Assembly (NCBI GenBank): GCA_000509225.1
Contig: BAOK01000001.1
Coordinates: forward strand, 1,798,001-1,862,000
From: Parvibaculaceae bacterium Mf 1.05b.01
Lineage (GTDB): Bacteria; Pseudomonadota; Alphaproteobacteria; Parvibaculales; Parvibaculaceae
Direction: 5' to 3'
DNA: 64,000 nt
Part shown: positions 7,024 to 39,381 of the stretch, in pieces
Layout of the letters: every line of letters begins with the position of its first letter
How positions within the stretch are numbered: position 1 is the stretch's first letter
Program-made: the position numbers and the translations under genes
Notes under the pieces: generated by a model
Database searches by the model: none
What the model was told of the DNA's origin: nothing
Seen by the model: the letters and a program-made list of their open reading frames with translations, nothing else

Positions 7024-8721
7024 CTAAAGAAGAACAGCGTCATTTCGGATATTGCTTCTTCGAACCAGATCAGGGCAACGTTTAGAAATACCATTGATGC
7101 GCTCGAGGTCATTTTTCGTTATCTCAGATTTGTTCTTCAGCTCTTCAACAAAACTCTCTATCGCCAGCACTTCTTTTTGAAACTCTGCCAGTGCAATCTC
7201 GTTTGAGTTCAAAAACTCTACCTGATCAACATAGCCCTTGCGCAACTTCTTTGCCTTGCGAAAACGCCTCCGAGCATACACAAACGCCATGATCGCGCTC
7301 TCTTTGTCGACAAGACCAAAACCGAGTTGCGCTTTGAGAAGATCAACCATTTTTTTGGCGAGTACGGCAAACACAACAAACTTCTGTCGCAAGCGGTCCC
7401 TCTCCCAACTCAGCCTGGTCAGGCCACCATGAGATTCGGCAAGAGCGGTTGTTCTCTTCCAGGCTGCGGCGTTTTTTGTAAGCGCTGGCAGATAGATGCT
7501 TGAGAGCGTCTCAAAAGGACCTTCGATATCAGCCGCCGGTCCCACCTTGGGTAAAGATGTGGGCTTTTGATTTGGCAGATATTCAAGATGAGAGCACCCC
7601 TCTCCTGGCCAATTGCTAAAAAGGCTCCGCTCATCGCTAACCACCCTCAATTTTTTGCTTCGCGCCACTTGTGAAATTCGTTCAACAAAAGAGCGGTAAC
7701 TGTAACGATCAGATGCGACGAGATGTTCGTATGCCCTAGTTGCCATATCCTCCAATTCGTCAACGCGGTCCACTGCCAAAAACACCTCTTCGATGTTCGA
7801 GTGATCTTTCTTTAGTGGCAGATAGTGTTGATACGGCTCAATAGCATCAGAGTACCGACCTTCATACAGGATCATAGGCGTGTAGTTTTGCACGCATTCA
7901 AACACCCGCGGAGAAATTTGCCCGACGTCAAATTTCTCTTCAATAGACACCAGTTCACTGAGAACACGTTGAGAGTCAGGCGACTTAAAGTCGATGCCTT
8001 GGAGTTTTTTTTCGATGCTTCCCTTAAAATCAAACACATTGGAACCGGACTCCGATCCAAGCATTGTCCGACAAGACCGGATAAACTCAGACCATTTCGG
8101 CCCGTATATTCTGTCAGCATCCTCCATCGCAATATCGTGCTTTATGCCGTGCTCTTGGCAATAGGCCCTTACCCAGTGTCCGATTTCGTACTTGTCAAAA
8201 CCAAGTTGCCCATATCGCACTCCAATATTCCGGCCGCGATACCCAACCACATTCGGCCGCTCAGAAAGTCTCACACGCGGTGGTGACTTAGCTTCATTGT
8301 CATCAATGTACCCGGTCAGAACCGTGAGGAACTCCACGCCTTCAAACTCATGGTCCGGATAGACCAGATGTCTCTGATCCTCAGGTACACAGGTCAGAAC
8401 CACATCGAATCCGAGCTCCTTTATTGCCTGTTTAAGGATATCGGTGCGGTCATATTCATCCTGCACTGAGAGTACTTTAAGTCCCTTAAAAGCACGAACC
8501 GCACTCTTGTAGCTCTCACTTACATATCCCTCGAAACAAAGACGCGCGCAGTAGTTATGGAGAAGCACATCATAATTATCTAAGTCCGACTCCAGTATCG
8601 CGTCATTTGTCACGTGCAGATATGCCACTTCACCTGGCCAGTGTTTTTTGAAGGCGGTGAGATATTCGTAGGTCGTCGTCACCTGAGTGGAGTTTCTAGA
8701 ATATGCTACGAGTAGCTTCAT
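7024..8721 (-). CDS. GT-B-like protein of unnamed family, paralogue P1
   Basis: A 565-residue protein that I do not recognise as a named family. It is clearly related to the products at 18,947-20,854 (P2) and 22,625-24,385 (P3). Shared landmarks are QDEY at residues 87-90, a TC pair about 30 residues on, LTGY, GYRGR, RIYG with a following W, ISPRVFE and HYLPLKKDHSN. The last two resemble the nucleotide-sugar-binding half of CgeB-like GT-B glycosyltransferases, so a transferase is my best guess. P1 departs from the others at GSESGSNV (GTPSGASV in P2/P3). Its C-terminal 150 residues are charged and probably helical. It sits between a GT4 gene (19 bp upstream) and AsnB-1. Confidence 0.75.
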   Translation of the reverse strand: MKLLVAYSRNSTQVTTTYEYLTAFKKHWPGEVAYLHVTNDAILESDLDNYDVLLHNYCARLCFEGYVSESYKSAVRAFKGLKVLSVQDEYDRTDILKQAIKELGFDVVLTCVPEDQRHLVYPDHEFEGVEFLTVLTGYIDDNEAKSPPRVRLSERPNVVGYRGRNIGVRYGQLGFDKYEIGHWVRAYCQEHGIKHDIAMEDADRIYGPKWSEFIRSCRTMLGSESGSNVFDFKGSIEKKLQGIDFKSPDSQRVLSELVSIEEKFDVGQISPRVFECVQNYTPMILYEGRYSDAIEPYQHYLPLKKDHSNIEEVFLAVDRVDELEDMATRAYEHLVASDRYSYRSFVERISQVARSKKLRVVSDERSLFSNWPGEGCSHLEYLPNQKPTSLPKVGPAADIEGPFETLSSIYLPALTKNAAAWKRTTALAESHGGLTRLSWERDRLRQKFVVFAVLAKKMVDLLKAQLGFGLVDKESAIMAFVYARRRFRKAKKLRKGYVDQVEFLNSNEIALAEFQKEVLAIESFVEELKNKSEITKNDLERINGISKRCPDLVRRSNIRNDAVLL

Positions 8722-8740
8722 TTTTTACTTTCTAGCTATT

Positions 8741-10033
8741 CTATTCGCAGATGGCGCGTTCAGCTATTTCCAATAGCTTCTTGCTTTCATTCTCCCAGCA
8801 TAACTGCTCAGCGGCCATACGCGCACCCGCACGATGTCGGATAACCGTCTCGACATCCAATCCATCAATGGCTTGCGCTATTGCCTCTGGGGTTTCATTA
8901 GCGATAATCAATCCGGCACCTGTCTCCTCCACAATACGTTTCATTTCAGGAAGGTCAGATATGCAAACGCAAAGCCCTGCCATGATGTACTCGAAGAGTT
9001 TGTTGGGAAGTGCATATTGATTGTGCTTCGAATGCCCAGGCAAAGCGAATAGCCCAATGTCAAACGGGGCCGCTTCGGACACAAGATCAGGCATCGGCAC
9101 CGGCTCCAAAAGTTCGACTTTACCTTCTACTCCCCACTTTTTGATCAGGGAGAGTAACTGAGACTTATAGCCGCTCGCCACCGGCCCTCGGATGGAAAAC
9201 GTAATACCCTCGCGCCAAAGCGATGCGGCTTCGATGCACAACTCCAATCCCCGCCCAGGCGCGACAACCCCATGATAGAGAATCTTAAAGTTCTCTGTAA
9301 TCTCGTGATCAAAAGCCTGCTCATACGAAGGCGTGTTACGCACAACATCGGGCTCTCTCTGAAGTCCATATGCAGCTTGCAAACCCACTGCGATCCCTTT
9401 GGACACTGTCATCACAGCAGCGGCATTAGAGATCCCACGGGCCTCTATTTCACGAACAAGCGGCTTTCGCAGCACTCGCCACAAGAGTCTTTGATTGTAT
9501 TCGTCGATTGCAAATTCGTGGGTGTCATAAACAATCTCACCACCAAGTTTGTCCTGGAGCCGCATGGCTACTGGCAGAGTATTCCAATCATTCGCTATCC
9601 AAACATCTGCCCCAGAGATAGCGGCTTCCTCGTAGATGAGTTGTGCTTCGGGCATAATCTTCCAAAAAAAGTCGAATGCAGCGGCCGGTCGGAAAGCCAC
9701 CAAAGCATGATAAGAAAGCTGAAGCACCCTATGCGGCATTGTTCTTGTTAGAAGGCGAAGAAGACTAAAAGCTATCTTTGCCGGTCGAAAGTTGCGTACT
9801 GCCGTCTCCACTTTCAGCACGTTCGACTGAAAAGTAGATCGCTCAGCAGTTCGAACTACGGGCTTTTTCATCCAGACCGGTGGATCTGCCCTGCCACCTG
9901 GAAGACCCGACGCAACAACCTGCCAGCCCGCTTGGTGAAAAGCGTCACCCTGGCGCCGAACTCGAGGGTCATCAGCCACAGTGTTGTACACAAGCAGACC
10001 AACTCGTCGCGATCGCTTATCTGAGAATCCCAT
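8741..10033 (-). CDS. glycosyltransferase family 4
   Basis: A 430-residue GT-B glycosyltransferase. The C-terminal half has the GT4 donor-site region: GLFALPGHSKHNQ, then LPNKLFEYIMAG, with the E-x7-E-type acidic residues in this region. The N-terminal half shows DVWIANDWNTLPVA and YDTHEF, typical acceptor-side motifs. It would add one sugar to the growing lipid-linked glycan on the cytoplasmic face. It is the first gene of the minus-strand operon that continues through P1, AsnB-1, ligase and pglCDE. Donor and acceptor cannot be predicted. Confidence 0.88.
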   Translation of the reverse strand: MGFSDKRSRRVGLLVYNTVADDPRVRRQGDAFHQAGWQVVASGLPGGRADPPVWMKKPVVRTAERSTFQSNVLKVETAVRNFRPAKIAFSLLRLLTRTMPHRVLQLSYHALVAFRPAAAFDFFWKIMPEAQLIYEEAAISGADVWIANDWNTLPVAMRLQDKLGGEIVYDTHEFAIDEYNQRLLWRVLRKPLVREIEARGISNAAAVMTVSKGIAVGLQAAYGLQREPDVVRNTPSYEQAFDHEITENFKILYHGVVAPGRGLELCIEAASLWREGITFSIRGPVASGYKSQLLSLIKKWGVEGKVELLEPVPMPDLVSEAAPFDIGLFALPGHSKHNQYALPNKLFEYIMAGLCVCISDLPEMKRIVEETGAGLIIANETPEAIAQAIDGLDVETVIRHRAGARMAAEQLCWENESKKLLEIAERAICE

Positions 10034-10253
10034 GAATCCGCTACAATCGCTCTGTTCAGAAGATTTATGATACGAAAATGTGCCGTCGCAAGGGTCTATC
10101 GGTTCCCGAATTAACGGTCAATAGGTGTCGATTGAGGATCACTGTGTGGCATTGGAATCATCAAATTCAGATTTCATTTAGAGCTTGTCGCTGAAGTCTG
10201 ACTTCTCTAAGTTCTGCCCTCACAAATGCAGACATAGAAGGCGGTAAATTAGT
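10034..10253. promoter_or_regulatory. divergent intergenic region between GT4 and SDR operons
   Basis: A 220-bp gap between two genes transcribed away from each other. It must hold promoters for the 10,033-to-1,275 operon and for the SDR at 10,254. I see AT-rich stretches but no promoter boxes I would defend, and no repeat or RNA gene. Confidence 0.5.
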
Positions 10254-11234
10254 ATGAATATAGAGGGAAAAAAGGCCGTTGTGATCGGTGGGGCTGGCCT
10301 TATCGGCTCTCATACAATAGACGCGCTTTTGAAGGAAGATGTCGCTGAAGTTTGTATTTATGACAATTTTGCTCGCGGCTCTTTCGAGAACCTAGCGACG
10401 GCACTGCGCGACCCGCGCGTCAAAGTTTTTGAAGCTGGTGGTGATATCTGCCAGACGGATATTCTCGATGGAGCCCTCGCAGGTGCCGATCTAGCCTTTC
10501 ATTTCGCTGCGCTCTGGTTGCTGCAGTGCCATGAATTTCCACGGTCAGCATTTGACGTGAATATTCGTGGAACGTTTAATGTTCTTGAGTCATGTGTGAA
10601 AAATCATGTGGAACGTCTGGTCTACTCGTCATCTGCTTCGGTTTACGGCGACGCTGAAGAAGAACCAATCACTGAAGAACATCCTTTTAACAACAAGAAT
10701 TTCTATGGCGCGACCAAGATTGCCGGGGAGGCTATGGCCACGGCCTTTCACCACCGGTATGGACTTCCAGTGGTCGGTTTAAGATACATGAATGTCTATG
10801 GTCCGCGGCAAGACTACCATGGTGCTTATATCGCGGTCATAATGAAGATGCTGGATGCGATCGACGAAGGTAAAGGACCGACGATCCACGGGGACGGCAG
10901 CGAAGCTTTTGACTTTGTCTCTGTCTTGGACTGTGCACAGGCAAATCTGTGTGCGATGAGGTCTGATGTTGCTGGACGCTACTACAATGTTGGGACTGGC
11001 ACCAAAACGTCGCTCAAAGAACTCGCTGAGCTGATCCTCCAGCTTACTGGCTGCAACCAGGAAATCACCTATGTTGAGCGCAGCCAGGCAACCCTCGTGC
11101 GCAATCGCGTTGGAAGCCCAGATCGTGCTCGAGAAGAAATTGGTTTCGATGCATCAGTTTCTCTGCGCGACGGACTTCAAGCGCTCATAGATTGGCGCAA
11201 CGAAGACAAGAAGACATCTGCGCCACAGAGCTAA
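10254..11234 (+). CDS. NAD-dependent sugar epimerase/dehydratase (extended SDR)
   Basis: A 326-residue extended short-chain dehydrogenase. Rossmann motif GGAGLIGSH is at the N-terminus, the catalytic triad is intact with serine in SSSASVYGD and Y-x3-K in FYGATK, and NVYGPRQ marks the substrate-binding region. The fold and spacing match GalE/WcaG-type nucleotide-sugar epimerases, so interconversion of a UDP-sugar at C4 is likely, although dehydratases share these motifs. It is a single plus-strand gene whose 3' end faces the methyltransferase gene with 20 bp between. It differs from the other SDRs in the window in having fully canonical active-site residues. Confidence 0.87.
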   Translation: MNIEGKKAVVIGGAGLIGSHTIDALLKEDVAEVCIYDNFARGSFENLATALRDPRVKVFEAGGDICQTDILDGALAGADLAFHFAALWLLQCHEFPRSAFDVNIRGTFNVLESCVKNHVERLVYSSSASVYGDAEEEPITEEHPFNNKNFYGATKIAGEAMATAFHHRYGLPVVGLRYMNVYGPRQDYHGAYIAVIMKMLDAIDEGKGPTIHGDGSEAFDFVSVLDCAQANLCAMRSDVAGRYYNVGTGTKTSLKELAELILQLTGCNQEITYVERSQATLVRNRVGSPDRAREEIGFDASVSLRDGLQALIDWRNEDKKTSAPQS

Positions 11235-11254
11235 TAGCTAAAAAACAAGCTCTC

Positions 11255-12037
11255 CTACAGTGGCTTCTGGTATACCGAGTACATTCCAAAAGTAAGGTAT
11301 TTTGCGAGTGTGGAGCGCCAGAAATGGCGCTCAAGCTCCACATAGCGTCTTACAAGCGACATGGGTCCTTTGTCCAACATGGGAAATGCCTCAGGACACC
11401 CCCATAACACGTATGCCAACAAGCTCGGATAAAGCGTTGACACCTGCGACAGACCAGCATTTTTGAAAATTTCATTCAACTCGCGGGTTGTAAAGCCTCG
11501 CTCCGTCTCTGCGTCAAAAGCCTCATTCTTGCGGTAGATAGCCTCGCGTACCAAGCGAAACAGCGGATTGTTGTGCACCGGCTCACTCAATATAAACAAG
11601 CCGCCGGGCCTCAATGCTTTGCCCAGCCTACTCACCACGTCTGGAGCATGATCCGCGACATGATGCAACGCTCCAACTAACATAATAAGATCATAGTCTT
11701 TGTCTGCCTCATACTGGGTTACGTCCTGAGTCCAGATTTCGCTACCGGGATAACGCTTCAACGCTTCGGTCACCATTGCGTCTGAGTAATCGAAACCTGA
11801 GTACTCCACATTCTTGGCCAGCCTGGCTTCAACAATCTGTCGACCTTCACAGGCTCCACACATTGGCTCCAACATTTGGATAGGTCTGTCGCTAGGTAGA
11901 AGGTCAACAACCGGATCAGTCAATGCAGACTGCCAAGTGGTGTCCCTCAGATAGATATGCCTGGGACTCTTTCTGGCCTCAATGTATTGGGCAGCAATAG
12001 CGTCAAAATGTACTCGTTGTTGCTCAATATCGGACAT
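11255..12037 (-). CDS. class I SAM-dependent methyltransferase
   Basis: A 260-residue Rossmann-fold methyltransferase (Methyltransf_11/25 type). Motif I appears as MLEPMCGACEG, a variant of the usual ExGCGxG. The acidic ribose-binding residue follows in YSGFDYSDAM, motif IV region LIMLVGALHHV and post-motif LRPGGLFILSEP are clear. In this setting it would O- or N-methylate a sugar or a chain end. It is 10 bp downstream of the polytopic membrane protein gene, so three minus-strand genes (14,053 to 11,255) look co-transcribed. The substrate is unknown. Confidence 0.85.
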   Translation of the reverse strand: MSDIEQQRVHFDAIAAQYIEARKSPRHIYLRDTTWQSALTDPVVDLLPSDRPIQMLEPMCGACEGRQIVEARLAKNVEYSGFDYSDAMVTEALKRYPGSEIWTQDVTQYEADKDYDLIMLVGALHHVADHAPDVVSRLGKALRPGGLFILSEPVHNNPLFRLVREAIYRKNEAFDAETERGFTTRELNEIFKNAGLSQVSTLYPSLLAYVLWGCPEAFPMLDKGPMSLVRRYVELERHFWRSTLAKYLTFGMYSVYQKPL

Positions 12038-12047
12038 TGCTGGTCAC

Positions 12048-13457
12048 CTAAAAGAGAGTTGCGATTCCGCGTAGCAAGTTGAGGATTGGATCTGGGTATG
12101 CGCCCATTGCCATGTTCGTGACATAGACCCCCTGGGCCGTTCTAACCGAATACCCAACCCATATGAAGTAAGACCAAACACCCGCAACCACAAACAAGGA
12201 CGCCCTTGCAGATCTGTTTGAAAGCCAGTCCACCAGAACTGCGCACAGGCCGACTACTCCGATTACGTTCACCCAAACCTGATATCCCAAGTATGGCATA
12301 GAGTGCATCGGTCTAAACTTCACCAGCGAGTGAGTGCTTGCTCCTACCAGCACCATTGCGACACATATCAGCACAATCCACAACCTCCAGCTGGAAGTGT
12401 GTTCGAACAGTTTTCGCCACGATGACACCCCTAAAATCAACAGCGCTGCAAAAGTCATCCCCGCATAGAAGCGCCATATGAAAATATGGTTCAGATAAGT
12501 CAAAAACTGCATCTGAGGATGATAGCCGTGTTGCTGATCTACGATCCAATCAGGTCCTGCCCTCACGAGAGACATTGACGACACGAGGTCTGGAGGGAGA
12601 ACGAGAGAAAAGGCAGTAAAGGAGAATGCGATTACTTTGGTAGCATAGTCATCCCAAATTGCAGGAAGCCATCCATAGAAAAAGACCAAGTCCGTTTCCG
12701 TGCCAGCACCGCTGCCAAAGCCGAGGCCGATCTTCAACGCAACGTAGCTCGCCGTTAGGGCGGCGATTGACAAAACATATATGGAAAATGCCCTCAGCAA
12801 CATTTTGTTACCCGTCGCATTCAGTAGAATCCCGATGGGCAACGCTAAAGCAAAGATAACGACAGCGACATCAATCCATGTCTCGTACCCCAAGACCAGC
12901 AGAATTGTTGCAATCAGCAGATATGCGAAACTCCCTCTCGACCTATTCTCTTTTAACACTCCAATAGATGCGTCAACAAAAAGGAGAAAGTAAGACATCA
13001 ATAGTCCGTGTGCTGTTGTACCGTGCACAGAATACACATGGAAGTTAAACGGCATCGTCACACACAGGAGCGCAGCTGAAGCTGCAAAAACAAAAGAACC
13101 AGTCAATCGCAGCCCCACAATGAAGACAGTGACAACCAGAGCACTCTGACTTATGACCAGAACAGTTGCTGGGTGCACAAACTGCTGAACCAGCGCCGCA
13201 AAGACGACGCTTGTTGAAGCCCACGTGCCATACACTTCTGGCTGCGGAAGGAGGTAGAGCCACCAAGACTTCTCATAATATGAGCTGGGCACGCCAAGGT
13301 TTGTGAAATGATCACTGATCGAATACGCCCCCTCCAGCACAACAATATTCAGTGCATTTAGGATCAGCAATCCCGTCACAAAAAGACCAAGCCCCACGAC
13401 GCCCATAGGCTGTCCACAGAATTCCCAAGTCTGCCTAGCCGGATTGACGCGTCCCAT
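12048..13457 (-). CDS. polytopic membrane protein, possible GT-C-like enzyme
   Basis: A 469-residue protein with about ten to twelve hydrophobic segments and short loops. I do not recognise the family. Its general plan (many membrane helices, a first large extracytoplasmic loop around residues 45-75 rich in aromatic residues) is compatible with GT-C glycosyltransferases that use polyprenyl-phosphate sugars, or with a flippase-like function. Its start codon overlaps the stop of the upstream 198-residue gene by 1 nt (TAATG), so the two are translationally coupled and probably act together. Function is open. Confidence 0.6.
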   Translation of the reverse strand: MGRVNPARQTWEFCGQPMGVVGLGLFVTGLLILNALNIVVLEGAYSISDHFTNLGVPSSYYEKSWWLYLLPQPEVYGTWASTSVVFAALVQQFVHPATVLVISQSALVVTVFIVGLRLTGSFVFAASAALLCVTMPFNFHVYSVHGTTAHGLLMSYFLLFVDASIGVLKENRSRGSFAYLLIATILLVLGYETWIDVAVVIFALALPIGILLNATGNKMLLRAFSIYVLSIAALTASYVALKIGLGFGSGAGTETDLVFFYGWLPAIWDDYATKVIAFSFTAFSLVLPPDLVSSMSLVRAGPDWIVDQQHGYHPQMQFLTYLNHIFIWRFYAGMTFAALLILGVSSWRKLFEHTSSWRLWIVLICVAMVLVGASTHSLVKFRPMHSMPYLGYQVWVNVIGVVGLCAVLVDWLSNRSARASLFVVAGVWSYFIWVGYSVRTAQGVYVTNMAMGAYPDPILNLLRGIATLF

Positions 13458-14053
13458 TAGAGCACCCCGAACATGTTTAGGTGCAGGACCCGTGCGCTAA
13501 GCCCGCCAGTTTCGGTTTTGGCCGTAAGTTCAATGCGCAACCTCTCACCAGATGCAGAAAATCTAGTCGTATTTAGAATTCCGTCCGACGCGATATCGGC
13601 ACTCCAGGAAACTGATCCAACTTCATCAATTACCTGAATTCCCAGCGTAGCCCCGTGAATCGGTTCAACCTGAAACTCGAGCAGATATTCCCTGGAATCC
13701 ACCGATGCAATTGGTTGTGACTTCCAGATTACGCCCCGATAATCTCCAGGAGGGAGGGAAACAAAAAACCCTTGCTCCGGATGTTTTGGCAGCGAAGTTC
13801 CAGAGACCAAGGCTTCGATATTGCCCGAAAGCGTCGAAAAAAGGAGACTTACTCCTGTTCGATTTCGCATCAGGTCCATTTCCGCCGCTCTCTTGTCCCA
13901 ATCGTCAAGAATTTCGCGAACGACATCTCGCGAAGATCGCTGCATGTCGACACCGTCATAAGGGAATGTGAGCGCGGCGGCTGACACGCCGATCAACGCA
14001 GCCGCCAGCAGCGCACGCAGAGGAAGCGTGTGAATCCATAGTGCTTGAAACAT
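13457..14053 (-). CDS. membrane-anchored hypothetical protein
   Basis: A 198-residue protein of unknown family. Residues about 10-30 form one hydrophobic helix (signal anchor or uncleaved signal), and the remainder is polar with alternating short hydrophobic stretches, suggesting a beta-rich extracytoplasmic domain. It is the first gene of the 14,053-to-11,255 transcript and its stop overlaps the start of the polytopic membrane protein. A periplasmic partner or accessory subunit for that membrane protein is the simplest reading, but nothing in the sequence identifies a catalytic site. Confidence 0.55.
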   Translation of the reverse strand: MFQALWIHTLPLRALLAAALIGVSAAALTFPYDGVDMQRSSRDVVREILDDWDKRAAEMDLMRNRTGVSLLFSTLSGNIEALVSGTSLPKHPEQGFFVSLPPGDYRGVIWKSQPIASVDSREYLLEFQVEPIHGATLGIQVIDEVGSVSWSADIASDGILNTTRFSASGERLRIELTAKTETGGLSARVLHLNMFGVL

Positions 14054-14125
14054 CTTCCCGCCCCCCAGAGGGTCAAATTGACTGATCCTCTTGTCTCAGA
14101 AAACGCAAAAAAAAGGAAGCACCAA

Positions 14126-14148
14126 CGCTTAGAAAAACATACTAAGCG
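14126..14148. promoter_or_regulatory. dyad symmetry in divergent intergenic region
   Basis: Perfect 7-bp inverted repeat CGCTTAG / CTAAGCG separated by 9 nt, in the 287-bp gap between the divergent genes starting at 14,053 (minus) and 14,341 (plus). Its place and size suit a regulator binding site; a small hairpin in a leader is the alternative. No matching copy was noticed elsewhere in the window. Confidence 0.35.
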
Positions 14149-14340
14149 CTATGACGTGATCAAACGAACAGTGCCCAGCGCATTAACCATTCGATTTGGC
14201 ACAAAACCAACCGAATATCCTATGACGGTTAAATGGAATACTCTATGTTCTGGCCTTCGTCAGCCGCTTGATTTGACCTGCGACTTTCGAATCCCACCCG
14301 AACCCCTGTCACTAGATCATACCTTCTAGGGAATTTCGCG

Positions 14341-16064: not shown

Positions 16065-16178
16065 AAATCCGGGCCTCTCACTCCAAAACTGACCATTTCG
16101 CTGGCGATACAAATAGGTTACAAAGCTCCAAGTGTGATCGAATGTTAAAAAATAAGAAGCAAGGATGACAACCCGAAA

Positions 16179-18050
16179 ATGTGCGGCGTAACAGGCTACC
16201 TTAATCTGAACGGCGCACCTGCCGAAACAGACATCGTCGCAAACATGACGAAAGCCGTAGTCCATAGAGGCCCAGATGGGAACGGCGTGGAAATTGATGG
16301 ACCGCTTGCTCTTGGGCATACGAGGTTATCGGTCATCGACCTCTCTAGCCTTGGCCGCCAGCCTATGGAAAGCCACGACGGGCGCTACGTGATTAGCTAC
16401 AATGGTGAGATCTATAATTATAAGGAATTGCGAAGTGAACTAGAGGCATCTGGTGAGGAGTTCATATCCCAGACCGATACAGAAGTCGTCCTTAACTCGA
16501 TTAAACACTGGGGCATCAAATGCATCGAACGTTTCAATGGAATGTTCGCATTTGCTCTATGGGATAGGTGGGAGAAGAAGCTTATCCTTGCGCGTGATCG
16601 GTATGGCATCAAACCACTCTATTTTTCCTTCGTCGGCGACACTCTGATCTTTGGGTCGGAGATTAAGGCAGTTCTTGCCCACCGCTCAGTTCAGTGTCGG
16701 CTTTCGCCAAACGGCCTTGCGGAATACATGTCCTTTCAAAATTTTTTCTCGAAGAACACACTTTTTGAAAATGTGTCACTCTTTCCACGAGCATCCTATG
16801 CAGAGTGGCGCGTAGGCTCCTCACCATCGCTACGCCCTATCCAATATTGGGATTACCAGTTTTATGAAAGCGAGTCTGATCGAAGCGACGAGGACTATGC
16901 CGAGGAAGGAGCGTTCCTTTTTCAACAAGCTGTAAAAAGACAACTCGTTGCAGATGTCCCGGTGGGCGCCTACCTATCAGGCGGCATGGACTCAGGAGCC
17001 ATAACATCAGTTGCGTCAAAAGCGCTTCCGCACCTGCATACATTTACGTGTGGATTTGATCTGAGTTCCGCGTCTGGCATGGAACTGTACTTCGATGAGA
17101 GGTCCGAAGCTGAACGTCTTTCGTATTTATTTAAAACAGAACACTACGAAGTCGTGCTCAAAGCTGGCGACATGGAAAGGGCGTTACCCAGTCTCGCATA
17201 CCACCTCGAGGAACCCAGAGTTGGTCAATCCTATCCAAACCACTTCGTTGCACGGCTAGCGTCCAAATTCGGCAAAGTCGTTTTGTCGGGTGCCGGTGGC
17301 GATGAGATCTTTGGTGGCTACCCATGGCGCTATTACAGGGCAATAGGCCCAAACAAAGGCACGAACTTTACAGAAGACTATTTTAATTTCTGGCAACGTC
17401 TAGTCCCACCTGATCAATTCGACAACCTCCTTCAACCCGTTGCCAAGGACACAAAAGACTTTTCTCCAATCGATGTATTTTCATCGGTGTTTCCGGAAAC
17501 TCCCAATCGAGCGTTGTCAACAAGCGATGCGATAAATTCGTGCATGTATTTCGAAGCTACAACATTCTTACAAGGCCTACTCATCGTAGAAGATAAGATC
17601 AGCATGTCTCACGGACTTGAGACCCGCGTTCCCTTTTTGGACAATGATCTCGTTGATTTCGCAACACGCGTGCCCGTTCGACTGAAAGTAAACGAAATGG
17701 GACATCAGTCACGGATTGATGAGAACGAAATTGCGAAAGGGTCGAAACACTACAAACGCACTAAGGATGGAAAGCTCCTGCTCAGATCGCTTGCCAGCTC
17801 ATTTCTTCCTGAAGATTCCATTCATCGCGAAAAACAAGGCTTCTCTGCTCCAGATGCAAGTTGGTTCAAAGGTGAGAGCATTGACTTCGTGCGGCGAAGC
17901 ATTCTCGACAAAAATGCGAAGATTTACGACTACATTGACTATAAGACCGCGTCGTCGCTGATCACTAGCCACCTTGAAGGCCATGAGAACAGACGCCTTC
18001 TCATATGGTCTCTGCTGAACCTAGAGTCCTGGTGCGAACAATATTTGTAA
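16179..18050 (+). CDS. asnB: asparagine synthase-like glutamine amidotransferase, AsnB-2
   Basis: A 623-residue class II amidotransferase. Cys2 is present (MCGVT), RGPDGNG and YNGEIYN line the glutaminase site, and the ATP-PPi loop SGGMDSG is near residue 266. The region after it, HLEEPRVGQSYPNH and SGAGGDEIFGGY, differs from AsnB-1/-4 (DGQGADE) and from AsnB-3, so a different acceptor is likely. It follows the UPF0104 gene after 114 bp and is followed by an SDR after 18 bp. Probable role: amidation of a sugar carboxyl (uronamide formation) using glutamine and ATP. Confidence 0.93.
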   Translation: MCGVTGYLNLNGAPAETDIVANMTKAVVHRGPDGNGVEIDGPLALGHTRLSVIDLSSLGRQPMESHDGRYVISYNGEIYNYKELRSELEASGEEFISQTDTEVVLNSIKHWGIKCIERFNGMFAFALWDRWEKKLILARDRYGIKPLYFSFVGDTLIFGSEIKAVLAHRSVQCRLSPNGLAEYMSFQNFFSKNTLFENVSLFPRASYAEWRVGSSPSLRPIQYWDYQFYESESDRSDEDYAEEGAFLFQQAVKRQLVADVPVGAYLSGGMDSGAITSVASKALPHLHTFTCGFDLSSASGMELYFDERSEAERLSYLFKTEHYEVVLKAGDMERALPSLAYHLEEPRVGQSYPNHFVARLASKFGKVVLSGAGGDEIFGGYPWRYYRAIGPNKGTNFTEDYFNFWQRLVPPDQFDNLLQPVAKDTKDFSPIDVFSSVFPETPNRALSTSDAINSCMYFEATTFLQGLLIVEDKISMSHGLETRVPFLDNDLVDFATRVPVRLKVNEMGHQSRIDENEIAKGSKHYKRTKDGKLLLRSLASSFLPEDSIHREKQGFSAPDASWFKGESIDFVRRSILDKNAKIYDYIDYKTASSLITSHLEGHENRRLLIWSLLNLESWCEQYL

Positions 18051-18068
18051 GAGACGAAACGAGATCAT

Positions 18069-18950
18069 ATGAAACTCCTTATTGCAGGCGCATCTGGGTT
18101 TATTGGGACCCATGTCCTTCGGCGACTACCATCTGACTGGGAAGTTTTTGCTATCTCGCGAAAACCTATTGCTGCTCCTCCCAACACCACACTCATCAAT
18201 GTCGATCTGACAAATCACGACTTCGCGCGATCTCTGCCCGGTCAGATAGACGCCGTACTGTCACTCGCGCAGTCTGCACACTATGCAGAGTTCCCCGCAA
18301 AGACACGTCAAGTATTCGATGTAAACGTGATGTCTTCCATTTCCTTGGTCGACTACGCCATTCGCGCGCGCGCCTCAACGTTTGTCCATGCCTCGACAGG
18401 CAGTGTATACGAGCCATATGGTGGACTTCTCAAGGAAGATGCTCTGCTGTCACCATCTTCTCTCAACGGCGTTTCCAAGTTCGTCGCTGAGAGGTCACTT
18501 GAGTTATACGACTCGCTCATTGGTCTCTGTTGCCTACGCATTTTTTTTCCATTTGGCCCAGGGCAAAAAAATCGCCTTGTTCAGTTAGTGCATAAACGAC
18601 TTTCCGAATGTCAGCCTGTCGACCTTGACGGTCCAGATGGAATGGTGTTCACCCCGACCTACGTCGAAGATATTGCAGACATAATGGCAACCGCGATCGA
18701 AGAAGGATGGCGTGGAACAATCAATATCGCATCGCAAGAAACTCGGTCGGTACGCTCTGTTGCCGAAGGCATTGCTCACATTCTCGGCGCAAAACCGCAG
18801 TTCAGCCACACCGGCTCACAGAGCACCAATATCACACCCGACACCACGAAGCTGTACACTCTGTATGAACACGCCAAAATGACAGACTTTCAAACAGCAT
18901 TACACGCAACCATAGATTCAATAGCCAATGATGGAACGCTCCCGACATGA
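18069..18950 (+). CDS. NAD-dependent epimerase/dehydratase-like SDR, catalytic Tyr replaced
   Basis: A 293-residue extended SDR. The Rossmann motif GASGFIGTH is intact and the catalytic Ser/Thr is Thr110 in HASTGSVYE. However, the Y-x3-K pair reads N-x3-K: Asn133 (codon AAC at 18,465) and Lys137 in SLNGVSK. Tyr is the general acid/base of almost all SDRs, so this protein may be non-catalytic, use another residue, or serve as a partner. The nucleotide sequence shows no frameshift. Its stop overlaps the start of P2 by 4 bp (ATGA), so it is tightly linked to P2 and AsnB-2. Confidence 0.82.
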   Translation: MKLLIAGASGFIGTHVLRRLPSDWEVFAISRKPIAAPPNTTLINVDLTNHDFARSLPGQIDAVLSLAQSAHYAEFPAKTRQVFDVNVMSSISLVDYAIRARASTFVHASTGSVYEPYGGLLKEDALLSPSSLNGVSKFVAERSLELYDSLIGLCCLRIFFPFGPGQKNRLVQLVHKRLSECQPVDLDGPDGMVFTPTYVEDIADIMATAIEEGWRGTINIASQETRSVRSVAEGIAHILGAKPQFSHTGSQSTNITPDTTKLYTLYEHAKMTDFQTALHATIDSIANDGTLPT

Positions 18951-20854
18951 GCCACAACATACTCTTTCTTTCCAGCACAGCTAACGGTTACACCGCCACT
19001 TCGCATCTGGAACACATCGGAAGCATCAAGCAACATTCCCGCCATAACATTTATTACCACAACTTTGTGTACGACATTGATCCTGACTTCGATTTCACAC
19101 CGTTTGATGTAATCGCGATTGGCCACAACTTCTGGCCCGAAATATTGTCTGCCGAACAACGTTTAGCCATTCGCAACGCACGCGCCGTAAAAATCCAATT
19201 TCTTCAGGATGAATATCAGTTTGTAAGAACGATAAATGGGTACCTGGAAGAGATGGGTATCAATGTCATGTTTACATGTGTCGCAGAGGAAGACTTCGAG
19301 TCCTTTTACCCTAAGAGCATTATGAATTCTTTGATGGAAGTGCAGCAAAACCTGACGGGGTATGTTTCGGATTCGCTTGCTCACCCTCGGAATTTCAAGA
19401 CCGGGCGTCGCAGTGTAGATATTGGCTACAGGTCCAGGGTCAGCCCCTTTTTTCTTGGTAAGCTCGGGCATGAGAAATTGGAGATTTGTGAAAAATTCAG
19501 TGCGATTGCGGACCAAGAAGGCTTTTCTCACAACATCTCAGTCCGTGAAGAAGACAGAATCTACGGCCACGAGTGGATCAAATTTCTTCAGTCAACACGC
19601 GTTCAACTTGGCACCCCCAGCGGGGCAAGCGTTGTCGATATGGACGGCCAAATTGTCGAGGCAGAACTGAATTTCAGACGCGAAAACCCTCATGCCGGGT
19701 TCAATGAATTCTTTGAGAAACACCTCAAGGAGCACGAGGGCAAGCTTGGCATCGATACAATTTCCCCTCGGGTCTTTGAGTATGCAGCTACCGGGGCCAC
19801 GATGGTGATGCATGAAGGCTACTATGGTGGGCACCTGGAAAAGGATGTCCATTACATCTCAGTAAAAAAAGACTACTCAAACATAACGGATGTAGTCGAG
19901 AGGATTGCTGACCAGGCCCATTGTAGAGAAATCGCTACTAACGCCCGTCAACATCTCATATTGGACGGTAACTATTCCTACCAACGCTTTGTCGAAAAAT
20001 TTGATGATGTGGTGGATAGGCACGCCCCTAAGAATACGTTGGTCAAAACAGTCGATGAGATTTCCTTCAACCGAAGTCTTGAAGAAAAGCATGAACAGGC
20101 ACTTTTCTTTGACAAAAAGGGCTGGGCTTTTTCCAACACGCCAACGGGCAAAGCCCTCAAAACAAGGTTCAACAAGGCTGGCAGGCTGAGACATATACCC
20201 ATTGTTGGGAAAACGCTAAAACGCATTGGTGGCGACCCGATCATCAAACTCGAGGAGCTATCCCTGGGTGCTACGCTGGCATGGCGAGTACCCGAATTCA
20301 AAAAACTCATGCATCTTTGGCTCCGCCACAGAAAACAAATGCCGGATATCACTTGGGATCAGCTTCTTAAAGAAATCGTTGTTTTTGGTCTTATTAAGTC
20401 AAGTCAGTCAGGCTTAGTGTATGCACAAACACCATTTCATACCAAAGTGCCACTCGTGCAATCCGACGGTTTCCTAGACATTGTCAGCACTCAATCTGAG
20501 GCTGGTCAGGTGTGTCAACTGTCGGAAACTATAGACTCAACAGTTCCACATCCCCCCGATTTCTGGCTTGAGATCACCGAGCAAATTCGCGAAAAATCAA
20601 TCAATCAACTTCGATGGGATGTGAGCGCCGTTTTCCCAATACTGCAGTTTGGCGTCTGCACGGTGTTCACATATGTGGCGCAAAACTCCTCTATTCAGAT
20701 GCGTTCAGCATCTGATCAATATTTCTACTTTCCAGCGTTCGATCGGCTCATGAAGCTGGATACCGAGTCGGCCGTTTTCGCACTACGTATGGCTCTATCC
20801 GCAGCATACGGTCCTGACCAGCCAGCGTTGGTCAAAAGTTTTGAGGTCACTTGA
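18947..20854 (+). CDS. GT-B-like protein of unnamed family, paralogue P2
   Basis: A 635-residue homologue of P1 and P3. QDEY is at residues 87-90, exactly as in P1; then come TCVAEED, LTGY, IGYRSR, GKLGHEK, EEDRIYG, LGTPSGASV, ISPRVFEY, EGYYGGHLE and HYISVKKDYSN. The last block resembles the donor half of CgeB-like GT-B transferases. The C-terminal 250 residues are unlike P1 or P3 and have no motif I recognise. It sits between the Asn-variant SDR (4-bp overlap) and the WbmS-like deacetylase (start 2 nt after its stop). A cytoplasmic glycosyltransferase or sugar-modifying enzyme is probable. Confidence 0.75.
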   Translation: MSHNILFLSSTANGYTATSHLEHIGSIKQHSRHNIYYHNFVYDIDPDFDFTPFDVIAIGHNFWPEILSAEQRLAIRNARAVKIQFLQDEYQFVRTINGYLEEMGINVMFTCVAEEDFESFYPKSIMNSLMEVQQNLTGYVSDSLAHPRNFKTGRRSVDIGYRSRVSPFFLGKLGHEKLEICEKFSAIADQEGFSHNISVREEDRIYGHEWIKFLQSTRVQLGTPSGASVVDMDGQIVEAELNFRRENPHAGFNEFFEKHLKEHEGKLGIDTISPRVFEYAATGATMVMHEGYYGGHLEKDVHYISVKKDYSNITDVVERIADQAHCREIATNARQHLILDGNYSYQRFVEKFDDVVDRHAPKNTLVKTVDEISFNRSLEEKHEQALFFDKKGWAFSNTPTGKALKTRFNKAGRLRHIPIVGKTLKRIGGDPIIKLEELSLGATLAWRVPEFKKLMHLWLRHRKQMPDITWDQLLKEIVVFGLIKSSQSGLVYAQTPFHTKVPLVQSDGFLDIVSTQSEAGQVCQLSETIDSTVPHPPDFWLEITEQIREKSINQLRWDVSAVFPILQFGVCTVFTYVAQNSSIQMRSASDQYFYFPAFDRLMKLDTESAVFALRMALSAAYGPDQPALVKSFEVT

Positions 20855-20855
20855 T

Positions 20856-21608
20856 ATGATCGCTGAACCGACCATCATTGTTACGCTAGACGTTGATTGG
20901 GCAGCCGACTGGATGATCGAGATGGCAGCAGAGGTCCTTGTCGAACGCGGCGTAAAAGCCACTTGGTTCATAACTCATGAGTCGCCTTCACTGGAAACTC
21001 TAAGGAAAGAACCATTATTTGAACTTGGCTGGCATCCCAATTTCCTACCTAACAGCAGCCATGGCGAAACTCCAGAGGCTGTTCTAACCTTCTGCCAGGG
21101 CCTGGTACCCGAAGCGCGCAGTGTGCGAACACACTCATTATGTCAGTCTGAGAGACATCTGAGCCTAATGGTAGAAGCATTCAACATAAAAAATGATTGC
21201 TCAATCTATTTGCCGGTAGACAGTGCAATAGATGCTCATTCGGTGGGGTATTCAGAGAACGGACCAAAACTCACGCGTGTTCCCCACTTCTTCCAAGACA
21301 ATATGCATATGTACACCGGTAAGAGCTGGGACCTCAGCAGATCTATGCTGGAGCGGACTGGCGTTTTGGTGTTTTGCTTTCACCCAGTCCATATTGCTCT
21401 TAACTCTCTCAATATGGCTCAGTACGAAGAGACAAAAAGAGAGATGAACATCTCCACCATAAAGAAGGAGGACCTCCCTCCCATTGATCATTCAAGCTCA
21501 GGCGCTGGCAAGCTGTTTAGGGATGTCGCTGATTATGCTTCGACAATGTCCGCTGCGACACTTAATGAATATTGCGAGTCTTGGAGATCAGGCAAGATAG
21601 ATGGATAG
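20856..21608 (+). CDS. polysaccharide deacetylase-like protein, WbmS family
   Basis: A 250-residue protein with the CE4-like fold pattern: TLDVDW (Asp12, Asp14) early, GWHPNF with His60, a second histidine in SSHG, RTH, and FHPVH near the end. These metal- and base-type positions and the opening sequence match the WbmS group of polysaccharide deacetylases from O-antigen loci. It has no signal peptide, so it likely acts in the cytoplasm on a nucleotide or lipid-linked N-acetyl sugar. The ATG at 20,856 has GAGG 9 nt upstream; a TTG at 20,841 is less likely. It overlaps the formyltransferase gene by 8 bp, which suggests deacetylation followed by formylation. Confidence 0.82.
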   Translation: MIAEPTIIVTLDVDWAADWMIEMAAEVLVERGVKATWFITHESPSLETLRKEPLFELGWHPNFLPNSSHGETPEAVLTFCQGLVPEARSVRTHSLCQSERHLSLMVEAFNIKNDCSIYLPVDSAIDAHSVGYSENGPKLTRVPHFFQDNMHMYTGKSWDLSRSMLERTGVLVFCFHPVHIALNSLNMAQYEETKREMNISTIKKEDLPPIDHSSSGAGKLFRDVADYASTMSAATLNEYCESWRSGKIDG

Positions 21609-22536
21609 GAAGCTTCGAGTGGCCGTATTGGGCCGCACAGAAATGCTGCTGGATGCCGCAAAACTCGCTCGCGAACGAGGGCACGAAATATCATTTGTCG
21701 CAACCACAGCACATGCCGAAAACTACACTGCTACTCCTAAAGACTTCGAACAGTTCGCGATGGATGTCGGCTGCCCATACTTCCGAGGCACCAAATTGCA
21801 TGAGCCGCATGTTCTAAAGATGATCAAGTCGACATCGAGTGACGTGGCCATCTCCATGAATTGGCCAGTTCTCCTGCCGGGCGTTGTGCGCTCTACATTC
21901 TCCAAAGGGGTATTCAACTCTCATCCTGGCGACCTCCCCAGATACAGAGGCAATGCTTGTCCCAACTGGGCAATCTTGAATGGAGAGGAACACGTCGGTC
22001 TCTGCATCCACGAAATGGTAGATGAACTAGACGCTGGCGATGTAGCAGTGCGCGAGAGATTTCTATTAGAGCCGAACACAGATGTTGCCGATGTATATTC
22101 TTGGCTTCGCAGGCAAATACCCATCTCCTTCAATAAGTTGTTGGATATGATTGCAGCGGATCGTCTTGAACTGTCAGCTCAACCCAAAGACCCAAATCTT
22201 TCCCTACGCTGTTTTCCGCGAAAGGCGGCGGATTCTCAAATAGATTGGGCAGCGAATAGTTTGGATATCCTTCGTCTCATTCGAGCCTCCACCCACCCGT
22301 TTGCAGGTGCATATTGTCACCTGGAACAAACTACTCTCAGAATATGGCGGGCGGAGCCCTTCGAGATGCCCGGTCCCTTCCTCGCAGTTCCCGGTCAAGT
22401 TTTGGGTGACGACAACGGAAAACCCTTGATCGCAACCCCTGACGGTGCGCTAAAGCTCGATAATGTTACCATTGACAGCACGACCGACTGTGCAATCTCC
22501 GAAATTCTAAGCAGCTTAAGAAACAGGCTTACGTGA
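21601..22536 (+). CDS. sugar N-formyltransferase (Fmt/ArnA-N-type)
   Basis: A 311-residue formyltransferase of the Fmt/ArnA N-terminal fold that transfers formyl from N10-formyl-tetrahydrofolate to an amino sugar. The catalytic triad is in place: Asn106 and His108 in NSHPGDLP and Asp144 in DELDAGD. The C-terminal 100 residues resemble the small OB-like domain of Fmt/ArnA. Genuine tRNA formyltransferase is unlikely because the gene overlaps a WbmS-like deacetylase by 8 bp and lies in a glycan operon. The same two activities occur fused in one polypeptide at 26,025-27,446. Confidence 0.85.
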   Translation: MDRKLRVAVLGRTEMLLDAAKLARERGHEISFVATTAHAENYTATPKDFEQFAMDVGCPYFRGTKLHEPHVLKMIKSTSSDVAISMNWPVLLPGVVRSTFSKGVFNSHPGDLPRYRGNACPNWAILNGEEHVGLCIHEMVDELDAGDVAVRERFLLEPNTDVADVYSWLRRQIPISFNKLLDMIAADRLELSAQPKDPNLSLRCFPRKAADSQIDWAANSLDILRLIRASTHPFAGAYCHLEQTTLRIWRAEPFEMPGPFLAVPGQVLGDDNGKPLIATPDGALKLDNVTIDSTTDCAISEILSSLRNRLT

Positions 22537-22624
22537 TAAAGGCGTGCCTCAAGCACTTGTGCTTTTTGCATTATGTCAACAGCTTGAAGGCGGTATGCTT
22601 GCGGTAGTAATTAAGAGATGCACA

Positions 22625-24385
22625 ATGTCCAAACTCAACATCCTGATCATCGCGGACTATCTTCCAGGCGACGCAACTGTCATCCGTGACCACCTATTCT
22701 CCTTTGATCGCTATTCAAACCACCGCGTCTTCCACCTCTTTTGGCCATCGAAACACAAAGATGAAATCGACTTCTCTCATTTTGATGTGGTTATTGTCCA
22801 TTGGTGCATTTACATAACCAAGCTGGGAATTAGTCATCCGTCAATTCCTGCCGCCATGGCAGAGAAGATTAGACAATCCTCAGCTATCAAAGTTCTTTTT
22901 CTGCAAGATGAATATCGACGAATGAATGCCGTTCATGAAGCAATGAACGAACTTGGCATTAATTTGATGATGACTTGTGCATCAAAGGAAACGCGAGAAC
23001 AACTCTACCCTTCCAGAAAACTGCCGTCCGTAGACGGGCTTCATACCGTTTTGACAGGCTACATCCCAGAGTACCTGAAGGCCAGAAGCCAAAGGGTAGA
23101 TGACAACACATCTCGACCAGTTGATATCGGATATAGGTCACGACGCTTACCCTTCAGCCTGGGTAAACTGGGTTATGAGAAAACGCAGATTTATGAGTAT
23201 GTGAGTGTGCGTGCGAAACAGTTGGGCATTCGAACGGATTTATCGATCTCAGAGTCCGAGCGCATATATGGAGATGCCTGGCATGACTTTCTCTTGTCTT
23301 CATACTGTCAGTTAGGCACACCAAGTGGCGCCAGCGTCATCGACTTCACTGGAAAAATTGAAGCTGATGTGAAGACATTCGTTGAGTTGCGACCGTTCGC
23401 ACCATTTGAAGATGTCTATGACACCTTTCTTTCCGATGTAGATGAAAAGTTGATCATCGACACAATCTCACCCAGAGTATTTGAATACACAGCTCACGGT
23501 TGCGTCATGTTGATGACTGAAGGCCACTACGGAGGCCACCTAGAGCCTGGGACACATTATGTGCAGATCAAGAAGGACTTTAGCAATCTAGACATAGCGC
23601 TTGCCGAGGCTATGGAACCAGAGGTTCGCGCGCAATTGCTTGCCAACACTCGTCGTGATTTGATGGACAATGATCAGTTTAGCTACCGGAATTTCGTTGG
23701 ATGGTTCAATCAACTACTGGCCACCGAACACGACTTCATCGCAAGAGGCAAGACGCGACAACGTGCTACGTTATTCCATCTTAAGCAAGCCATCAGCCAG
23801 CAGCACCCTTCTTTGCCAGTCCGCGGATATGAAGTTCTCATTCCTTGGCATATTATTCACAAATTTCAACAACGGATTTCGCGATGGATAGCAGGGCACC
23901 CAAAGCTTGCCCGCACCATAGATGCGACGGCGCTTTTGGTTCGTTCGCCAAAACACTTCCTTTACAGTGCTTATGCGAGCCTGCTTCGCCACAATCCTCG
24001 AGTGCTCAGACTTCACCATATTGCGCTGTCGTTTGTGCGATCCCCGCGACATTTCTTCTCAGATCTAGGTGCGAATCTATCACAACGGTTCCCGAGTGCG
24101 CTTCATGCGTATGGCGCCACGAAGATGGTCATCCTCTCGCCAAGACAGTTCATTTCAAGACTAGGTGCCAAGCTATCAACGCGGCTTCCGAGAGCTCATC
24201 ATGCGTATGGCGCTACGAAGATGTTCATCTCTTCGCCAAGATATTTCATATCGAAACTGCGTGCAAAGCTGTCACAATGGTTTCCGAGTGCGCGCTATGG
24301 GTATGGAGTCGCCAGGATGCTCATCCTCTCGCCGAGGCGCTTTTTCTCCAGACTACACGCGAAATTCACCAAGCATCGTACCTGA
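22625..24385 (+). CDS. GT-B-like protein with C-terminal 32-residue repeats, paralogue P3
   Basis: A 586-residue homologue of P1 and P2. The core carries QDEY (94-97), TCASKE, LTGY, IGYRSR, GKLGYEK, SERIYG, LGTPSGASV, ISPRVFEY, EGHYGGHLE and HYVQIKKDFSN. From residue 441 the chain becomes a tandem array of a 32-residue unit (four full copies and a partial fifth) that neither P1 nor P2 has; the units are basic and aromatic-rich. I chose ATG 22,625 because P1 and P2 begin at the same point of the fold; an upstream GTG at 22,544 would add 27 residues. Last gene of the plus-strand operon; its end faces the GT-B-like gene at 24,416. Confidence 0.76.
   Translation: MSKLNILIIADYLPGDATVIRDHLFSFDRYSNHRVFHLFWPSKHKDEIDFSHFDVVIVHWCIYITKLGISHPSIPAAMAEKIRQSSAIKVLFLQDEYRRMNAVHEAMNELGINLMMTCASKETREQLYPSRKLPSVDGLHTVLTGYIPEYLKARSQRVDDNTSRPVDIGYRSRRLPFSLGKLGYEKTQIYEYVSVRAKQLGIRTDLSISESERIYGDAWHDFLLSSYCQLGTPSGASVIDFTGKIEADVKTFVELRPFAPFEDVYDTFLSDVDEKLIIDTISPRVFEYTAHGCVMLMTEGHYGGHLEPGTHYVQIKKDFSNLDIALAEAMEPEVRAQLLANTRRDLMDNDQFSYRNFVGWFNQLLATEHDFIARGKTRQRATLFHLKQAISQQHPSLPVRGYEVLIPWHIIHKFQQRISRWIAGHPKLARTIDATALLVRSPKHFLYSAYASLLRHNPRVLRLHHIALSFVRSPRHFFSDLGANLSQRFPSALHAYGATKMVILSPRQFISRLGAKLSTRLPRAHHAYGATKMFISSPRYFISKLRAKLSQWFPSARYGYGVARMLILSPRRFFSRLHAKFTKHRT
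23945..24382 (+). repeat. in-frame tandem repeat, 96-bp unit, 4.6 copies
   Basis: Units begin at 23,945, 24,041, 24,137, 24,233 and 24,329, each exactly 96 bp and 32 codons, the last cut short by the stop. Each starts with Ser-Pro-(Arg/Lys)-x-Phe. Units two to four share Gly/Arg-Ala-Lys/Asn-Leu-Ser and a central Ala/Gly-Tyr-Gly motif; the first is diverged. Units two and three also share nearly identical DNA around CATGCGTATGGCG and ACGAAGATG, so the expansion is recent. Amphipathic, basic helices are likely, perhaps for membrane or polyanionic glycan contact. Confidence 0.9.
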
Positions 24386-34035: not shown

Positions 34036-34060
34036 TCGCCAGCTAGTTCAACGAGGCCTT

Positions 34061-39207: not shown

Positions 39208-39381
39208 TACTCTTAAGTCCCCATTTGCCGTGCTTGATTTGTCCAAGCTATCTTTATCGCCTCTGTCAGCTCACGGCTACTAATAACACCACAGGTGTTT
39301 CAAGATCAATTTCGCCTGCGGCGCACTGATCAAAAACCGCCAAAAACCTGCCGTTTTTCATAAACTGATCGACACATTTTT
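39208..39381. promoter_or_regulatory. intergenic region between wbpI and wbpA with short palindrome
   Basis: About 170 bp separate two same-strand genes, longer than elsewhere in this operon. It contains a 15-bp palindrome AACACC-ACA-GGTGTT at 39,285-39,299. The gap may hold a second promoter for wbpA-B/D-E or a processing site; neither is proven. Confidence 0.35.

Follow-up and report, generated by a model that had tools for sequence, protein, structure and literature searches.

One of the closest described counterparts of the locus analyzed here is the wbm O-antigen cluster of Bordetella, whose enzymes WbmF, WbmG and WbmH are proposed to turn UDP-ManNAc3NAcA (UDP, uridine diphosphate) into UDP-L-GalNAc3NAcA; mutants in these enzymes lose normal O-antigen (PMC2279256). 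A second Bordetella system, the b-Cool locus, places an AsnB-like gene beside several glycosyltransferases, and its product carries GalNAcAN uronamides (PMC12407052). We analyzed a 64,000-nucleotide stretch (the window) of the Parvibaculaceae bacterium Mf 1.05b.01 genome (contig BAOK01000001.1, positions 1,798,001 to 1,862,000), and focused on three related proteins, P1, P2 and P3, encoded there near AsnB-type amidotransferase genes. Close homologs of all three Wbm short-chain dehydrogenases/reductases (SDRs), and of the enzymes that precede them in the 2,3-diacetamido-uronate pathway, are encoded in the window as in the wbm cluster; additional to it are four AsnB genes, two genes with formyltransferase domains and the three P genes. 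The b-Cool locus differs in that its product lacks a 2,3-diacetamido sugar. The open-access literature that we searched held no description of the P family or its substrate association, no transferase family for UDP-L-GalNAc3NAcA or its amide, and no sufficiently detailed description of WbmI, WbmJ or WbmK. We propose, with a probability of roughly 0.6, that P1, P2 and P3 are transferases that attach 2,3-diacetamido-hexuronic acid or uronamide residues from UDP-sugar donors to lipid-linked O-antigen.

Three paralogs with a GT-B core

The original prediction described P1, P2 and P3 as paralogs that share QDEY, LTGY, RIYG, SPRVFE and HYxxxKKDxSN landmarks in the same order, and the reading frames, motifs and BLASTP alignments all agree with that description. 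Pairwise BLASTP identities are 28% for P1-P2 (E 3e-50), 31% for P1-P3 (E 2e-51) and 38% for P2-P3 (E 3e-74). The shared homology spans about 350 N-terminal residues, and over this core P2 is 40% identical to P3 and 31% identical to P1. This similarity is far above chance and, on alignment, marks the three as true paralogs, 28-40% identical. A family hidden Markov model (HMM) search of the genome found no further members. In a family tree, P2 and P3 group with loci L040, L041 and L042 at full support, and P1 groups with L029, L031, L033 and L052; because P2 and P3 fall in one clade and P1 in another, the three are not equal recent duplicates. For P3, the earliest well-aligned start codon is the ATG at 22625, which is probably the true start and would give a protein of 586 residues.

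The gene arrangements noted earlier hold as well. P1 precedes AsnB-1 on the same (-) strand, 70 bp upstream, and P2 and P3 share a (+)-strand operon with AsnB-2, whose genes run head to tail with short overlaps or gaps in the order AsnB-2, SDR, P2, WbmS-like deacetylase, formyltransferase, P3.

The family had also been predicted to be GT-B-like, and structure prediction and fold search of both the P2 core and P1 match GT-B glycosyltransferases. With 12 sequences as input, AlphaFold2 modeled the P2 core at a pLDDT of 90.8 and a pTM of 0.88. The best VIA-align match of this model is the UDP-glucose-dependent DNA alpha-glucosyltransferase of phage T4 (AGT; Z 20.4, root-mean-square deviation 3.5, 300 residues aligned); GT4 enzymes come next, PimA, BshA and PglA among them (Z 18-19). 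The top 50 VIA-align rows are all GT-B transferases (Z 16-20), and the best Foldseek match in the PDB is BshA (E 3.7e-8). A separate full-length model of P1 has a pLDDT of 79.3 overall and about 90 in the core, which matches T4 AGT with a Z of 20. These models establish a predicted GT-B fold, with two facing Rossmann-like domains, the second of which would hold the nucleotide-sugar site, for P1 and P2; P3 should share it because of its core identity to P2. The likeness to T4 AGT is one of fold only, at 13% identity and with another acceptor and another biological setting. Similarly, the retaining GT4 enzymes resemble the whole P core in their two-domain GT-B architecture (Z 17-19), at 9-13% identity.

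In sequence databases, the P family sits at the margin of PF13524 (Glyco_trans_1_2). Against a gathering cut-off of 25 bits, full-length P2 scores 24.7 bits, the P2 core 26.9 and P3 16.6, and P1 has no match to PF13524 or to any other Pfam family. Six of 12 relatives match PF13524 at E values up to 1, relatives with fused domains score 33-48 bits, and the divergent member at L072 scores 38.6 bits. The earlier description of the family as unnamed therefore holds only in part, as the core lies at the border of PF13524; NCBIfam has no model for any of the three. The GT90 (CAP10/POGLUT) profile PF05686 matches 2 of the 12 relatives (best E 0.0022), and a match to POGLUT1 (5l0r) has an E value of 0.014, with about 50 residues aligned. 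PHROGs returned for P1-P3 only one match, at chance level (P1, E 0.25), and no P2 relative is encoded on any plasmid record. Neither of the two results named beforehand as counting against the proposal appeared: the predicted fold has a GT-B core, and HMM matches to a non-transferase family were not found. The P family is best placed, by sequence, as a divergent relative of CgeB/YkvP-like GT-B enzymes (PF13524). The two share a nucleotide-binding C-terminal half with an S-x-R-x-F-E motif, and the viral matches in Foldseek include YkvP/CgeB-like proteins. The P family differs in having QDEY, LTGY, RIYG, ESG and HYxxxKKDxSN landmarks of its own, about 35 additional residues inserted ahead of SPRVFE, and C-termini that are long and variable.

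We counted residue conservation over 145 family cores, using P2 numbering. Arg162, Gly171, Trp210 and Glu278 (in SPRVFE) are invariant, Asp88 (in QDEY), Asp231 and Asp309 are conserved at 99%, and Lys177 at 97%. The EX7E motif of CAZy family GT4 is only half present: its second Glu corresponds to Glu278 (145/145), whereas the first-Glu site holds Asn, Ala, Arg and others at position -8, and mostly Gln, Thr or Ala at -7. The diphosphate-site Arg and Lys and the second EX7E Glu of GT4 enzymes have plausible counterparts in the P core. By analogy with GT-B enzymes, the diphosphate is probably held by Arg162 and Lys177, and the ribose by Glu278; Asp88 is a candidate catalytic residue. Glu224 (in LGxESG) is present in 131/145 cores, and is replaced by Pro in P2, P3 and L040 and by Gly in L041.

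The C-terminal regions of P1 (about 200 residues), P2 (270) and P3 (221) show no detectable mutual similarity; the original prediction had noted that they differ. Residues 397-564 of P1 form four long helices, at moderate confidence, in the full-length model, and the P2 C-terminus is common only to its closest orthologs. The P3 C-terminus contains a 96-bp (32-residue) tandem repeat at 24065-24333, with 2.8 copies and 75% matches. Hydrophobic-moment scans of the C-termini revealed neither a transmembrane segment nor an amphipathic helix clearly common to them; the only notable feature was how strongly positively charged the P3 tail is (38 Lys/Arg against 5 Asp/Glu in 221 residues). These non-homologous parts, a predicted helical bundle in P1 and basic repeats in P3, probably serve for membrane or partner contact.

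Linkage to a 2,3-diacetamido-uronate pathway

The P family is rare and patchy. Members occur in 4/7 genomes of the genus, 4/40 of the family and 4/398 sampled across the phylum, one of the last four being weak. From a named collection we assembled 76 loci, which come from Pseudomonadota, Planctomycetota, Verrucomicrobiota, Cyanobacteriota, Actinomycetota, Chloroflexota and others, with a median of 2 members per locus and up to 5. We then compared about 10 kb on each side of every locus with two control sets of 40 loci each, one centered on an initiating sugar transferase (PF02397) and the other on PF13524 enzymes. AsnB lies near 54/76 family loci, compared with 2/40 and 6/40 control loci, respectively, in a comparison where both control sets come from Alphaproteobacteria (the window's class), the family loci span phyla, the loci are limited in length and some contigs are short. 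This HMM search with AsnB co-occurrence scoring was among the checks that the original prediction had called for, and the AsnB association is real and non-random.

The association is nonetheless with one sugar pathway, that of UDP-2,3-diacetamido-hexuronate and its L-galacto form (WbmF/G/H plus 2-epimerase), more than with AsnB generally. For 36/152 family copies, the next gene downstream on the same strand is AsnB. WbmF or WbmH homologs occur near 44/76 family loci (0/40 and 3/40 in the two control sets), and any gene of the AsnB, Wbm or diacetamido-uronate set near 69/76 (8/40 and 14/40). The recurrent block across family loci consists of homologs of the window's AsnB-3 and the three SDRs that follow it, WbmH, WbmG and WbmF. 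Several loci, among them those of Caulobacter, have uronate genes and family members without AsnB. Within this pathway AsnB may be the amidating step, judging from its homology. A formyltransferase lies near 14/76 family loci and near none of the 80 control loci, and 13 of these 14 family loci also have AsnB; in the window, formylation is concentrated in the P2/P3 clade. The earlier suggestion of a family specialized for amidated or formylated sugars is thus partly supported: the association with AsnB holds, as part of a wider uronate pathway that in some loci lacks AsnB, any donor would be read from gene context, and formylation concerns a minority of loci.

The linkage to the proposed donor pathway holds in both directions. 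WbmF homologs (E up to 1e-80) were found in 8/385 alphaproteobacterial genomes, and in all seven assessable ones (the window's own and six others) a family member lies no more than about 20 kb away; the contig of the eighth is 3 kb long. Among 200 genomes sampled around an Achromobacter locus, the family and WbmG homologs occur in the same three, one of which is the starting genome. The counts in these reverse tests are small and ignore relatedness. In several genomes a divergent family member directly follows an AsnB - WbmH - (WbmG) - WbmF - epimerase series.

On the tree, adjacency to AsnB requires at least 31 changes, though it is somewhat clustered, and we therefore rejected a single inherited P-AsnB arrangement. 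P cores are also fused to GT4 enzymes, and one fusion type is homologous to the GT4 gene beside P1 (L074, L076 and L083). Together with proteins that carry two P cores, these fusions support a role in stepwise glycan assembly. One such double protein is a 3066-residue open frame on an Ignavibacteriae contig (L082:54-9251, +). An actinobacterial member (L065:4529-7702, +) combines a glycosyltransferase domain and a P core with a long Ala/Glu/Gln-rich repetitive segment.

Proposed donor and competing explanations

In the model that we favor, P1-P3 would be GT-B glycosyltransferases that work in the cytoplasm and belong to a cluster for O-antigen or a similar surface polysaccharide. Homologs in the window suggest that UDP-2,3-diacetamido-hexuronic acid is made stepwise by a 6-dehydrogenase, an oxidoreductase, a WbpE-type aminotransferase, an acetyltransferase and a 2-epimerase, and that WbmF/G/H would convert it to the L-galacto form, UDP-L-GalNAc3NAcA or a stereoisomer. 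AsnB-type amidotransferases may then turn the carboxylate into a uronamide, a step suggested by homology and, by association, by the b-Cool locus. The P core would bind the UDP-sugar between its two Rossmann domains and move a (di)acetamido-hexuronic acid or uronamide residue onto a lipid-linked glycan. P1 is paired with a GT4 enzyme and AsnB-1 and probably contributes one residue in amidated form; the residue added by P2 and P3, from the AsnB-2/deacetylase/formyltransferase operon, is probably a modified one that is amidated, N-formylated or both. While the fold, paralogy and linkage were observed directly in models, alignments and counts, the donor, acceptor, anomeric outcome, catalytic residues and C-terminal role in this model are inferred.

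Several observations weigh against this model. The controls are alphaproteobacterial only, and within alphaproteobacterial family loci AsnB is found in 16/27. AsnB is missing from 22/76 loci, 12 of which have diacetamido-uronate genes instead, and 7/76 loci, some of them short contigs, show none of the AsnB, Wbm or diacetamido-uronate genes. At the site of Glu224, a residue present in 90% of the family, P2 and P3 carry Pro and may therefore differ in chemistry or donor. A distance of 6-25 kb separates P1-P3 from the window's Wbm cassette, which none of the P genes adjoins. More generally, linkage is no proof of donor specificity, as a cluster-resident family could transfer a neighboring sugar.

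In one alternative, P2 and P3 have diverged to use an N-formylated or N-deacetylated amino sugar, made with the neighboring formyltransferase and WbmS-like deacetylase, with P1 keeping the uronamide role. Their well-supported clade agrees with such a split: WbqC, a formyltransferase and a 538-residue glycosyltransferase-like protein are encoded in two of the three loci that group with P2 and P3 and in the congeneric locus L039, and the replacement of Glu224 extends to L040 and L041. The enrichment of formyltransferases near family loci points the same way, but nearly all of the formyltransferase loci also have AsnB, so the two modifications are confounded, and the P2/P3 clade is small. We regard this divergence as unlikely, while giving it real weight.

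A further alternative keeps P1-P3 as GT-B enzymes of the same clusters and gives them an ordinary UDP- or dTDP-sugar (dTDP, deoxythymidine diphosphate) donor; they would recognize a uronamide-ended acceptor, and the linkage would reflect that acceptor. The nearest structural neighbors do use UDP-Glc, UDP-GlcNAc or GDP-Man (GDP, guanosine diphosphate), and the several members per locus and the GT4 fusions fit the assembly of a mixed repeat unit. However, other sugar genes vary widely among loci while the diacetamido-uronate/Wbm/AsnB set recurs, and the divergent member right after the 2-epimerase in the AsnB - WbmH - (WbmG) - WbmF - epimerase cassette occupies the usual place of a dedicated transferase. 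On this balance an ordinary donor seems rather doubtful.

That the family has a GT-B fold and no transferase activity, as catalytically dead scaffolds or 2-epimerase-like enzymes would, is very improbable: the first Glu of EX7E is absent, P2 and P3 lack Glu224 and UDP-GlcNAc 2-epimerases also have a GT-B-type fold, yet the putative diphosphate- and ribose-binding residues are conserved over 145 sequences, transferases head the structural ranking, P cores are fused to GT4 transferases, and Pfam shows no match to PF02350 (2-epimerase) in P1-P3. A 2-epimerase identity of the P core, considered for the shared fold type, was rejected on that missing PF02350 match; the structural rows listed include no 2-epimerase.

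Returning to transfer of the diacetamido-uronate or its amide, we tentatively extend this model, at somewhat less than an even chance, to the whole family. P proteins would then form a dedicated GT-B clade, horizontally spread over a dozen or more phyla, with UDP-2,3-diacetamido-2,3-dideoxy-L-galacturonic acid or its amide as the common donor and with subclades (P1, P2/P3 and post-epimerase) that track uronamide and formamido modifications. The donor specificity of a glycosyltransferase usually cannot be read from its sequence; neighbors that point to one rare donor, whichever way the linkage is tested and in many phyla, make this a predictable and testable case. If true, the family would supply the missing transfer step beside the characterized WbmF/G/H enzymes, and would mark amidated glycans of the 2,3-diacetamido-uronate type in many bacteria, for example Legionella, Rickettsia endosymbionts, Planctomycetota, Caulobacter and Cyanobacteria.

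Genes of the window's cluster

The genes on which this model draws are collected in the table below. PDB entries 2q1w, 2pzk and 2pzj in its last column are Bordetella WbmH, WbmG and WbmF, respectively. Together, these predicted WbmF/G/H homologs and the predicted UDP-ManNAc3NAcA pathway make up a Wbm-type UDP-L-GalNAc3NAcA locus, as judged by homology.

Predicted features of the P1-P3 cluster, with coordinates in the window
Feature	Coordinates	Strand	Length	Basis
AsnB-1, glutamine-dependent amidotransferase, directly downstream of P1	5049..6953	-		PF00733, NCBIfam asparagine synthase
P1: GT-B glycosyltransferase core (~1-355) and predicted C-terminal four-helix bundle (397-564)	7024..8721	-	565 aa	AlphaFold2, VIA-align, family HMM, tree
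GT4-type glycosyltransferase directly upstream of P1	8741..10033	-		PF13692/PF00534
AsnB-2, first gene of P2/P3 operon	16179..18050	+		PF00733, NCBIfam
SDR nucleotide-sugar enzyme of P2/P3 operon	18069..18950	+		Pfam Epimerase
P2: GT-B glycosyltransferase core (~1-360) and 270-aa C-terminal region of unknown fold	18947..20854	+	635 aa	core model, PF13524
WbmS-like polysaccharide deacetylase between P2 and P3	20841..21608	+		PF22537, 187 bits
Sugar N-formyltransferase directly upstream of P3	21601..22536	+		PF00551 and PF02911; best NCBIfam relative ArnA-type formyltransferase
P3: P2-like core; strongly basic, repetitive C-terminus	22544..24385	+	613 aa from GTG	
AsnB-3, first gene of Wbm cassette; homologs are the most frequent flankers of family members	30161..32077	+		
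WbmH homolog	32147..33088	+		513 bits to 2q1w
WbmG homolog	33097..34035	+		457 bits to 2pzk
WbmF homolog	33977..35116	+		485 bits to 2pzj
WbpE-type 3-aminotransferase, 2,3-diacetamido-uronate pathway	35129..36259	-		375 bits to WbpE 3nyu
Fused Gfo/Idh/MocA oxidoreductase and hexapeptide acetyltransferase (WlbA- and WlbB-type steps)	36268..37821	-		Pfam; C-terminal half 216 bits to lipopolysaccharide acetyltransferase 3mqg
Nucleotide-sugar 6-dehydrogenase (WbpA-type step)	37837..39246	-		Pfam, NCBIfam
UDP-2,3-diacetamido-2,3-dideoxy-glucuronate 2-epimerase	39382..40491	-		432 bits to 8sxv

Four AsnB paralogs lie within 40 kb (5049-44057), and they are the only strong PF00733 matches in the genome. 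The proteins are asparagine synthase domains with an N-terminal MCG and, judging by family membership, may be sugar-amidating enzymes. An identification of AsnB-3 with WbmE was dropped, as the title of a reference in PMC3849452 calls WbmE a periplasmic post-assembly enzyme. The fusion gene at 36268-37821 (-) would place two 2,3-diacetamido-uronate pathway steps in one chain.

Two further (-)-strand genes follow P3. The first (24416-26032) encodes the 538-residue protein, which has no Pfam match over the cut-off (PF00534, E 0.027). Homologs recur in 17/76 family loci, frequently accompanied by WbqC and a formyltransferase, and the protein may represent a second GT-B-like family without an assignment. 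The second (26025-27446) encodes a 473-residue protein in which residues 56-133 cover only part of a formyltransferase domain and the long rest matches no family.

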